Source: Pseudanabaena sp. (GTDB lineage Bacteria; Cyanobacteriota; Cyanobacteriia; Pseudanabaenales; Pseudanabaenaceae). Taken from it: DNA of 64,000 bases. This document shows, piece by piece, positions 30,077 to 45,161 of the stretch. The position numbers were made by a program, and so were the translations under genes. The notes under the pieces were generated by a model. The model searched no databases. It was not told the DNA's origin and saw only the letters and a list, made by a program, of their open reading frames with translations. Location: positions 1 through 64,000 of the forward strand of contig QBMK01000020.1 in the NCBI GenBank assembly GCA_003249035.1, in the 5' to 3' direction. The first letter of the stretch is position 1, and every line of letters starts with the position of its first letter.

Positions 30077-30137
30077 ATAAAAGGAATTTTGGAGTTTTCA
30101 GCACCTGCGGTGCTGAAAACTCCAAAATTCCTTTTAT
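30077..30137. terminator. Perfect long palindrome after the decarboxylase
   Basis: Two perfect 29-base arms (30077-30105, 30109-30137) around the centre tgc, the longest in the window. It insulates the decarboxylase from the riboswitch region. Confidence 0.8.
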
Positions 30138-30255
30138 ATGTTCTAATGGGATGTACATATATAGACAAGATCTTTAGGAAAAACAAGCGCAATGATACTA
30201 GAAGTATCTTAAGGTGCTGAATTTAGAGTCTTTGGTTAACCTAAACGGTAAAAAA

Positions 30256-30385
30256 TATTGGTTCGGTTCCAACGGGTAACTGTCGTTGGAGGTAACGGGG
30301 AAAGTTTGGTGTAAACCCAGCGCTGTCCCGCAACTGTGATGAGATTCATCAATCTCTTAGTCAGGATGCCCGCCGATTGCAAAGG
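30256..30385 (+). promoter_or_regulatory. Cobalamin riboswitch
   Basis: Conserved cobalamin-aptamer blocks occur in order: ggttcggttcc, taacggggaaagtttggtg, taaacccagcgctgtcccgc, aactgtgatga (the 'CCGCAACTGT' element) and agtcaggatgcccgcc. The spacing fits the class. Downstream hairpins at about 30386-30401 (gggtctc/gagactc) and 30419-30441 (atcatct/agatgat) may be the expression platform. It precedes the unknown gene at 30536 on the same strand, so B12 level should control that gene. Confidence 0.92.
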
Positions 30386-30435
30386 GTCTCTTTTGGAGAC
30401 TCATAAACCTGCTCCTTATCATCTGCGAGGTATAG

Positions 30436-30552
30436 ATGATGTTTAGTTCAAAATTTTTAGAAGTTTTACAATTGCGACAGCTTTCACAAACACTATGCCA
30501 AGGCGATCGCATCAGGGATATCTATAGGAAGTCCAATGCTGCGAGAACATAG
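30436..30552 (+). CDS. Possible upstream leader ORF overlapping the riboswitch-controlled gene
   Basis: Two ATG codons (30436 and 30439) follow GAGG at a good distance; the frame runs 38 codons and stops at 30550-30552, 16 bases inside the next gene in another frame. The product (MMFSSKFLEVLQLRQLSQ...) is not recognisable. It could be a translated leader or chance; composition includes a HIP1 site. Confidence 0.3.
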   Translation: MMFSSKFLEVLQLRQLSQTLCQGDRIRDIYRKSNAART

Positions 30553-31003
30553 AGAACTTCGGAGCATCGATCGTTCTTGGCAATCTCAGTTTATTCGAGA
30601 AAACTTTTTACTGATTGGATATCATACCTTGAGGGGTGTTGCAACTTCGGATAAAGGTATTACAGTTTGTATTGTTGACATACCTCCTACTAATTTCAAA
30701 CCGAGTTTTCACATTTGGCAATTTAGAACTCAATTTATATCAGCAGAATTTGCTTCGACCTATTTGTTGGAAATGGGTATCAGTTCGCGTCAAATTCCGT
30801 CATTAGTACAGGCAATCAACTCTTATGATCCTCAGCAAGAGATCATACTGGCAATGAATACTGATCAAAATATCGAAATTTACTATCTCCAGAATCTGAA
30901 GATTTCTCCCACAGAATGCTACAAACAAGTATGCGATCGATGGGATGAATTCATGCCAGATGGGTTGCCGCCTGATTCATTACGTCGTTTTATTTATTCA
31001 TAA
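30536..31003 (+). CDS. Unknown protein controlled by a cobalamin riboswitch
   Basis: A 155-residue soluble protein without a recognised domain. ATG 30536 follows TAGGAAG. Visible parts: a basic N-terminus (MLREHRELRSIDRSWQ), a beta-rich middle (ENFLLIGYHTLRGVATSDKG, ITVCIVDIP), and a helical C-terminus with FASTYLLEMGISSRQIPSLVQ and ECYKQVCDRWDEFMPDGLP. No signal peptide, membrane segment or metal motif (no CxxC, no DxHxxG B12 motif). The riboswitch upstream indicates it is switched off by cobalamin, so it may serve cobalamin or cobalt supply, or replace a B12-dependent step. It stands alone before a terminator. Confidence 0.75.
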   Translation: MLREHRELRSIDRSWQSQFIRENFLLIGYHTLRGVATSDKGITVCIVDIPPTNFKPSFHIWQFRTQFISAEFASTYLLEMGISSRQIPSLVQAINSYDPQQEIILAMNTDQNIEIYYLQNLKISPTECYKQVCDRWDEFMPDGLPPDSLRRFIYS

Positions 31004-31017
31004 GAATTATTCAAGAA

Positions 31018-31054
31018 GCTAGGATGGGCAGTGCTTTGCGCCGCCCATCCTAGC
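31018..31054 (+). terminator. Terminator after the riboswitch-controlled gene
   Basis: Arms gctaggatgggc (31018-31029) and gcccatcctagc (31043-31054) with a 13-base loop. It lies 15 bases after the stop at 31003. Confidence 0.65.
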
Positions 31055-31091: not shown

Positions 31092-32258
31092 GTGGAAAGC
31101 ATAATTAAAAAATCAGACTTTGTTCTAAATCCTTACATGAAGAGCAACGATCTTTGGGCGACTTATCAAATTCTTAATACCGTTGTTCCTTACATACTTT
31201 TATGGGTTTTAGCAGTTAAAGCAGCAGCATTTTCTCTCTGGTTGATGCCCCCAATCATCATTTTGATGACCCTTTTTTCATTGCGTTGCTTCTCTTTGAT
31301 GCATGATTGCGGTCATTATTCACTCTTTAGTTCCAAAAAAGTTAACAGGGTTGTCGGTTTCTTTTTGGGAGTGATTAATGCCATACCCCAATACCCATGG
31401 TCAAGAGGTCATGCTTACCACCACAAAACCAATGGTGATTGGGAACGATACCGTGGCGTAGCAGCATTTCTCTCTACTGAAGAATTTTCTAAGCTCAATA
31501 CTTCTGAGCAAAAACTGTATGCCGTAATGAGGCATCCATTAATGTCTTTTGCTGGAGGTTTTTTCTACCTTGCGATCAGACCAAGATATGCTCTAATTGC
31601 AGGAACCTATGATTTTATTGGTCATATATTTTCCAGTTTAAAGAAAGACCCTCGCATGAGTTTTGCAGCAATTATTTCCTCTCATAAATCTAGAAATTGG
31701 TATACAGGAGCCGAATTTATAGATCTGCTGCTCAATAATATTTGCGTAATCAGTAGCTGGATTTTCCTTAGCCATTTGCTTGGAGCAGGATTCTTTTTTG
31801 GTGTTTATTCAATCAGCTTGACCATTTCGGCAGCAATCTTTATCTGCGTGTTCTATGTTCAGCATAACTTTGAATCCTCTTACGCTCACAAGACAGAAAA
31901 TTGGGACTATCTGCTTGGAGCGCTTGAAGGAAGCAGTTATCTCGAATTACCTAAAATTTTGAAGTGGTTTTCTGCAAATATCGGCTTCCACAATATTCAT
32001 CACCTTTCTGAGAGAATCCCTAACTACAATCTCCAGGCTTGCCATAACGCCAATATTCACCTTCTTTCAAAAGTAAAATTGCTGAATCTCGGGGATATGC
32101 TTGGTTGCGCAAAGTTTGTACTGTGGGATTCAGAGGCGAGTCATCTGATTTCGATCGCTGAATTTCACAAATCAAAATCTACAGCTCTAGATTTCGATCA
32201 AAGCATACTAACTCGAAATAAGCTAGAAGACCTACTTGCCAAAAATAGCGAGGCTTAA
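31092..32258 (+). CDS. Membrane fatty acid desaturase
   Basis: A 388-residue integral membrane desaturase with the three histidine boxes that bind the di-iron centre: HDCGHYSLF, GHAYHHKTNGDW and NIGFHNIHHLSERIP. Membrane segments flank the boxes in the normal order. The start is a GTG at 31092; the ribosome site is weak, and the first 15 residues are hydrophilic. It acts on acyl lipids or a carotenoid-like substrate in the membrane. It is not a clear DesA/B/C/D orthologue: its box environment resembles the delta-12/omega-3 superfamily, but regioselectivity cannot be assigned. Strand and spacing show it has its own transcript. Confidence 0.88.
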   Translation: MESIIKKSDFVLNPYMKSNDLWATYQILNTVVPYILLWVLAVKAAAFSLWLMPPIIILMTLFSLRCFSLMHDCGHYSLFSSKKVNRVVGFFLGVINAIPQYPWSRGHAYHHKTNGDWERYRGVAAFLSTEEFSKLNTSEQKLYAVMRHPLMSFAGGFFYLAIRPRYALIAGTYDFIGHIFSSLKKDPRMSFAAIISSHKSRNWYTGAEFIDLLLNNICVISSWIFLSHLLGAGFFFGVYSISLTISAAIFICVFYVQHNFESSYAHKTENWDYLLGALEGSSYLELPKILKWFSANIGFHNIHHLSERIPNYNLQACHNANIHLLSKVKLLNLGDMLGCAKFVLWDSEASHLISIAEFHKSKSTALDFDQSILTRNKLEDLLAKNSEA

Positions 32259-44969: not shown

Positions 44970-45161
44970 GTCACCCCTCCGCAACGCCGTCTTACCTCAG
45001 TTGTTTGACCCGGTAAAACCAGGTGGAGCCGAGGCGCAACGCCTAACTTAAGTTCCCAGATGCATGTCTGGTATACTGCGGCGAAGACTGCCAAAGACTC
45101 CTAGAAAACAATTATCGATCAAGACACATTATCGGTAGTCACGCACGCCACAGAGGAGCTT
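44970..45161 (-). ncRNA. ssaA: Probable 6S RNA (SsaA), 5' end near 45161
   Basis: On the minus strand an RNA of about 185 bases starts near 45161. Its 5' part reads CTCCTCTGTGGCGTGC and pairs with GGCGTTGCGGAGGGG at its 3' end to close a stem of 14 consecutive pairs; several are G-U wobbles, so pairing holds only for the minus-strand RNA. The interior can form small hairpins (CCAGA/TCTGG, AGGCG/CGCCT). This 'CCTCTGTGGCGTG' 5' block and single long interrupted helix are the style of bacterial 6S RNA, the RNA polymerase-binding regulator. A TATAAT box precedes and a long palindrome follows. No SRP RNA, tmRNA or RNase P motif is present. Class assignment is by pattern. Confidence 0.65.

Follow-up and report, generated by a model that had tools for sequence, protein, structure and literature searches.

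A CcmS-like protein family behind cyanobacterial cobalamin riboswitches and its possible role as an adaptor in the response to B12 shortage

What does a small protein of no catalogued family do directly behind a cobalamin riboswitch in Pseudanabaena sp., and is its role tied to B12? The stretch of DNA analysed (the window; 64,000 nucleotides) encodes this protein, here called X, in a plus-strand ORF at 30536-31003, and the 155 residues given in a preliminary description of the locus were confirmed. Cobalamin riboswitches are known to precede metE, HupE, CobW and the gene of a putative metal-binding protein, and the work of Perez et al. 2016 reportedly places RF00174 before metE in the cyanobacteria PCC 73109 and PCC 7002. 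The aptamer that had been read from the letters was borne out by computation using Infernal, which returned an RF00174 match at 30247-30391 (+) with 56.4 bits against a gathering threshold of 31.5 (E 2.5e-11 over the window), spanning all 189 positions of the model (1-189). The switch is thus a member of RF00174; its start had been put at 30256, which is 9 nt late. The Orn/Lys/Arg decarboxylase gene upstream is closed, and kept apart from the riboswitch unit, by a strong bidirectional terminator-like hairpin at 30084-30130 that has a 20-pair stem with T tails on either strand; six such terminator-like sites were found where 0.7 were expected. The draft genome to which the window belongs (4.55 Mb) carries three cobalamin riboswitches, two of which precede X genes. 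The second X gene (G000:C24:34240-34860, locus L080) directly follows the second riboswitch and starts inside the switch hairpin itself, while the third riboswitch precedes a HupE-like gene (L081; HupE by resemblance). Elsewhere in the window, a 6S RNA (RF00013, 60.9 bits) lies beside a tRNA gene at 44972-45159 (-).

Just 3' of the aptamer, the MFE fold contains a hairpin with a 9-bp stem (30417-30441, +), in which the Shine-Dalgarno sequence GAGG (30427-30430) occupies the loop and the start codons ATGATG (30436-30441) lie in the 3' arm. It is predicted to serve as the downstream platform, able to mask a ribosome-binding site, that characterises RF00174 members. The MFE of the full leader is not clearly below that of shuffled sequence (z -0.53). 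The aptamers examined are nearly all followed by the motif ATCTGCGAGG..RGAT(G), one pair of which shows a C-G to T-A exchange, and a hairpin of the form ATCTGCGAGGTAC-RGAT(G) stands directly behind nearly all aptamers, with the Shine-Dalgarno sequence in the loop and mostly with a start codon in the 3' arm. In some loci this codon is the gene start itself, as for X (L080), DUF1636 (L124, L136) and HupE (L103). In the window this codon begins a 38-codon leader ORF (30436-30552, +) whose stop end overlaps the start of X by 17 nt, and in three other Pseudanabaena genomes (L146-L148) the ORF has the same frame and length, with no frame break. The 17-nt overlap recurs at metE-X junctions in other genera, where overlaps of 11-17 nt occur in many genomes, and also where the gene before X encodes a methyltransferase, CobW or DUF1636. 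From this arrangement, translation of X may be coupled to that of the leader through the overlap. A different leader was seen in four loci of several genera (L069, L072, L101, L097), in which the switch start codon opens an 18-codon peptide of similar sequence, MMxTSxFCDW..VGILRL, well before metE or a metE remnant.

No family was found for X in Pfam or NCBIfam, even at E 1, and a search of PHROGs gave nothing significant. A single-sequence search recovered X in 31 of 97 relatives, and among 388 sampled genomes of the cyanobacterial class a profile search recovered the family in 117; weak X-like matches (E about 1e-9 to 1e-7) in G023-G025 and G155 were left unassigned. The residues Cys45 and Cys128 are near-invariant, and a separate clade, X2 (support 1.0), stands beside the X1 type to which the window protein belongs. 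For the association with riboswitches, 74 X loci were gathered by protein homology alone and then scanned for RF00174. The aptamer was present upstream on the same strand in 68 of them, covering about 39 genera and 16 families, with X placed first or after co-directional genes. Four of the remaining six loci (L073, L112, L120, L125) are cut upstream by the end of the contig or stretch, and in two (L111, L114) RF00174 is truly absent within the stretch read. A separate check of 13 named loci found the switch upstream of X in 12, the other (L197) being cut at a contig end. As genomes carry about three riboswitches each, the association in 68 of 74 loci cannot be due to chance. The preliminary description had proposed an undescribed B12-related role, to be doubted if most homologues lacked the riboswitch; that situation was looked for and not seen, and the switch association, together with the partners metE, HupE, CobW and DUF1636, supports such a role.

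An AlphaFold model of X (55 sequences) was obtained with a pLDDT of 83.9 and a pTM of 0.78. Foldseek searches of the PDB at E<=0.001 returned two matches only, both of them CcmS: 9iur from Synechocystis (1.5e-5) and 8zlh from Nostoc 7120 (1.1e-4), with a probability of 1.00. VIA-align gave Z scores of 8.7 and 8.6 over 112-114 residues, the next row being a designed protein at 4.8. Since a Z score near 8 can by itself reflect a common arrangement, homology was tested separately by comparing profile with profile. The X profile matched a CcmS profile, built from 21 homologues and itself matching the CcmS structures with E values of about 1e-38 or better, with a probability of 93.7 (E 1.8e-7, 116 columns), and a second alignment repeated the match (E 8.7e-7); a P-x-x-C-[YF]-x-Q-V motif is common to both families. 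Sequence profiles of X searched against the PDB before modelling had given only sub-threshold CcmS matches (E 0.5-0.8). The fold, the profile-profile match and these weak earlier matches identify X as a divergent CcmS homologue, and the view that X forms a new branch within the CcmS superfamily is well supported by sequence and model. The absence of a known domain, as previously described, therefore stands as far as Pfam and NCBIfam are concerned but not at the level of fold. X is nevertheless not the CcmS orthologue: a CcmS profile (A4) applied at E<=0.001 to 33 X genomes recognised CcmS in two only (G059, G073), where it coexists with X, and never retrieved an X gene, and the residues that bind the CcmK1 tail are not clearly kept. 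Among these (D51, Q53, F58, Y60, D126, E130), E130 aligns with Pro141 of X and D126 with a variable position, and the beta1-beta2 region of X is not alignable. In one of the two genomes the CcmS homologue was seen by eye next to OCP- and FRP-like genes (L213, G059), with no ccm gene recognised in the short stretch read.

The description of X as the sole gene of its unit did not survive: the leader ORF overlaps it and, 89 nt downstream on the same strand, follows a gene for an FA_desaturase membrane diiron enzyme of 388 aa (31092-32258, +) with intact His boxes HDCGH, HAYHH and HNIHH. A palindrome without a T tract (31019-31053) lies between the two genes, and a similar one occupies the same place in L146-L148. 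In many genomes the place of the desaturase beside X is conserved; in a search of 12 genomes the X-linked type was found in seven, in one copy each and always beside X. The recurring order is riboswitch, [metE], X1, [X2], desaturase, SAM methyltransferase (MT2) and DUF1636; variant cassettes include another SAM methyltransferase, CobW, HupE, or a second FA_desaturase type (after X in L074, L075, L105 and L113) with a CMAS-type methyltransferase. No partner is constant, and some X genes have no desaturase, microprotein (see below) or metE alongside. MT2, which we take to be the Sll0418-type MPBQ methyltransferase, occurs mostly as a single copy, with 74-80% identity across the class, and so has the look of a housekeeping enzyme that the operon has taken up. 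Neither in G002 nor in the genome of the window (G000), a draft that may have gaps, was a close copy of MT2 found; in G000 only a 37% relative is present. In the metE operon of two Limnothrix loci (L067:7369-9495 and L068), two extra proteins stand between X1 and X2, one a 465-aa ribonucleotide reductase barrel protein that resembles a fragment, the other a protein of 239 aa that has no family. In Cyanobiaceae (L140:3465-5933, L141, L145), a distant homologue, X', lies opposite a MetR-type LysR gene, with no riboswitch found upstream of X' in these three loci. The best NCBIfam model for the LysR gene is MetR at 189 bits, against 98 for the next and below the equivalog cut-off of 382. In two of these genomes (L140 and L141), X' precedes a desaturase of the window type. 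The cassette partners, together with the pairing of X' and desaturase beside a MetR-type gene, point to a shortage of methionine or SAM after B12 loss.

A microprotein of mostly 59-90 aa, matching no Pfam or NCBIfam family, was found in about 35 B12-switched loci, often 50-90 nt 3' of X (for example L072:9563-9739, L097:5459-5638 and L170:4358-4543), and was not found in the window. It carries the N-terminal motif M-[LP]-K-x-Y-L-[HQ]-R-x-G-[KQ]-I-P-T-x-x-H-P-F-V-K (core YLHRxGKIPTxxHPFVK), and the same motif is fused to the N-terminus of the desaturase in L069, L093 and L197. As a guess, X might bind this motif; the peptide MLKYYLHRSGKIPTSVHPFVK would be a conjectural candidate ligand.

The position of X behind metE was followed into loci where metE has been lost in part. 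Short ORFs that keep only both ends of metE run into X in several loci, with lengths of 104 codons in L101, 106 in L111, 93 in L118, 67 in L119, 41 in L086 and 28 in L107. In these loci and in L092, L093 and L106, metE has been reduced by internal deletion with one or both ends kept, and the remnants often overlap the start of X by 17 nt, as is seen at intact metE-X junctions. Other remnants before X are the C-terminus of CobW (71 codons, Nostoc) and the start of a desaturase-type peptide (L168). Seven of ten putative metE deletion events are in frame into X against one third expected (binomial p 0.02), a bias that is suggestive only, the events having been judged by eye without proof of their independence and three remnants being out of frame. 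The leader ORF of the window is not recognisable as a metE remnant. In L114 (G260:C4), where the X ORF is on the minus strand, a C-terminal metE remnant is fused in frame to X.

The reading we favour, and hold to be probable, is that the window carries a B12-repressed unit in which X acts as a CcmS-like, peptide-binding adaptor of the response to starvation for B12 and methionine synthase activity. Cyanobacterial cobalamin is mostly pseudocobalamin. When cobalamin is plentiful, it would bind the aptamer and stabilise the hairpin at 30417-30441, which would hide the ribosome-binding site and start codon of the 38-codon leader ORF, and X, coupled to the leader by the overlap, would be turned off as well. 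When cobalamin or cobalt is short, the leader would be read and X made. X would then work like CcmS, as an adaptor or chaperone without enzymatic activity, small and probably dimeric, that grips a short peptide tail of its client, the client being part of the starvation response and not of the carboxysome. Riboswitch control of the family and its homology to CcmS are well supported. While the B12 response of this strain and the adaptor action of X are what we infer from the arrangement and the fold, the identity of the client is a guess, for which the neighbouring desaturase or the microprotein motif would be the best candidates. A wider version of this reading is doubtful as a whole. It would have a broader CcmS-type adaptor superfamily in cyanobacteria, the X branch of which is induced when B12 is short and brings in client enzymes through YLHRxGKIPTxxHPFVK, either in trans by way of the 59-90-aa microprotein or in cis through the N-terminal extension of the desaturase, and so remodels membrane lipids or quinones when the B12-dependent supply of methionine and SAM fails, with upstream genes gutted in frame to leader ORFs that keep X coupled to the switch.

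Other functions for X were weighed against the adaptor reading. X could be a protein for handling B12 or cobalt, that is a cobamide or metal carrier or a chaperone of cofactor trafficking; it shares cobalamin riboswitch control with HupE, CobW, DUF1636 and BtuB, often sits beside CobW or DUF1636, and has its two near-invariant cysteines. We judge this unlikely, as X lacks a metal-binding Cys/His cluster, its sole structural relatives are CcmS proteins solved as peptide-binding dimers, and X' sits with a desaturase and a MetR-type regulator and not with transport genes. Slightly less likely still is that X serves MetE, the B12-independent methionine synthase, as its dedicated assembly factor or activator, although the metE-X overlaps fit this and the two genes co-occur: X was found in 23 of the 37 genomes with full or major metE and in 94 of the 351 others (Fisher p 3.7e-5). 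Fourteen of those 37 metE genomes have no X, most X genomes have no metE, and X persists where metE is a remnant. In the window's own genome and in the genomes of its genus that were searched, metE (TIGR01371) was not found, and metH was present in all 38 genomes checked. With X and metE each occurring without the other, X as an obligate partner of MetE was ruled out by distribution across genomes. Least probable in our judgement is that X is a true carboxysome factor, a stand-in for CcmS that ties carboxysome assembly to B12 status. Its fold and profile similarity, and the scarcity of recognisable CcmS in X genomes, would suit that role, but CcmS is rare in the class anyway (22 of 194 genomes), X and CcmS fall in separate clades and can coexist, no carboxysome gene was seen beside X, and the CcmK1-tail-binding residues are not clearly kept in X.

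A protein that follows riboswitches across much of the cyanobacterial class thereby gains a fold, a family and a testable mechanism. If the adaptor reading is right, CcmS, hitherto described for carboxysomes alone, becomes part of a superfamily that also has a different function. No description of X, its relationship to CcmS, the leader coupling or the microprotein was found in the searchable papers, many journals lying outside that search, and no mention of slr1911 was found in the literature searched. The locus also bears on an older puzzle, a desaturase under a B12 riboswitch that its authors left unexplained, supposing a missing B12-dependent isozyme (Kazanov et al. 2007, PMC2211319). In the cassettes under B12 switches, X, SAM methyltransferases and metE are repeatedly accompanied by desaturases; the desaturase of that report lies on metagenome fragments without X (PMC2211319), and that of the window is DesA-like.

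Among known systems, the cyanobacterial metE riboswitches belong to the same aptamer family, and metE-X operons share both the switch hairpin and the junction with X. RF00174 precedes metE in Limnospira PCC 8005, with no expression given for metE-adjacent genes (PMC8400943). The window differs from these systems in that it has no metE and in that its switch starts a short leader ORF to which X is probably coupled. In Anabaena, alr4027, the gene of a putative metal-binding protein, stands behind a B12 riboswitch whose response to cobalt and cobalamin has been seen in vivo (PMC10878165). This alr4027-btuB2 switch is likewise a cyanobacterial B12 switch but controls uptake genes, and no X is reported with it (PMC10878165); the alr4027 product is probably a DUF1636-type protein, and proteins of this type are commonly encoded beside X. 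CcmS (Slr1911, All1292), the assembly chaperone of beta-carboxysomes, is a dimer that binds the short C-terminal tail of CcmK1 (PMC11635287). X resembles it in having five helices and four strands and in its size class, and differs from it in its identity of about 15%, its longer beta1-beta2 segment, its control by a B12 riboswitch, and its neighbours, which belong to methionine and lipid metabolism and not to the ccm genes.
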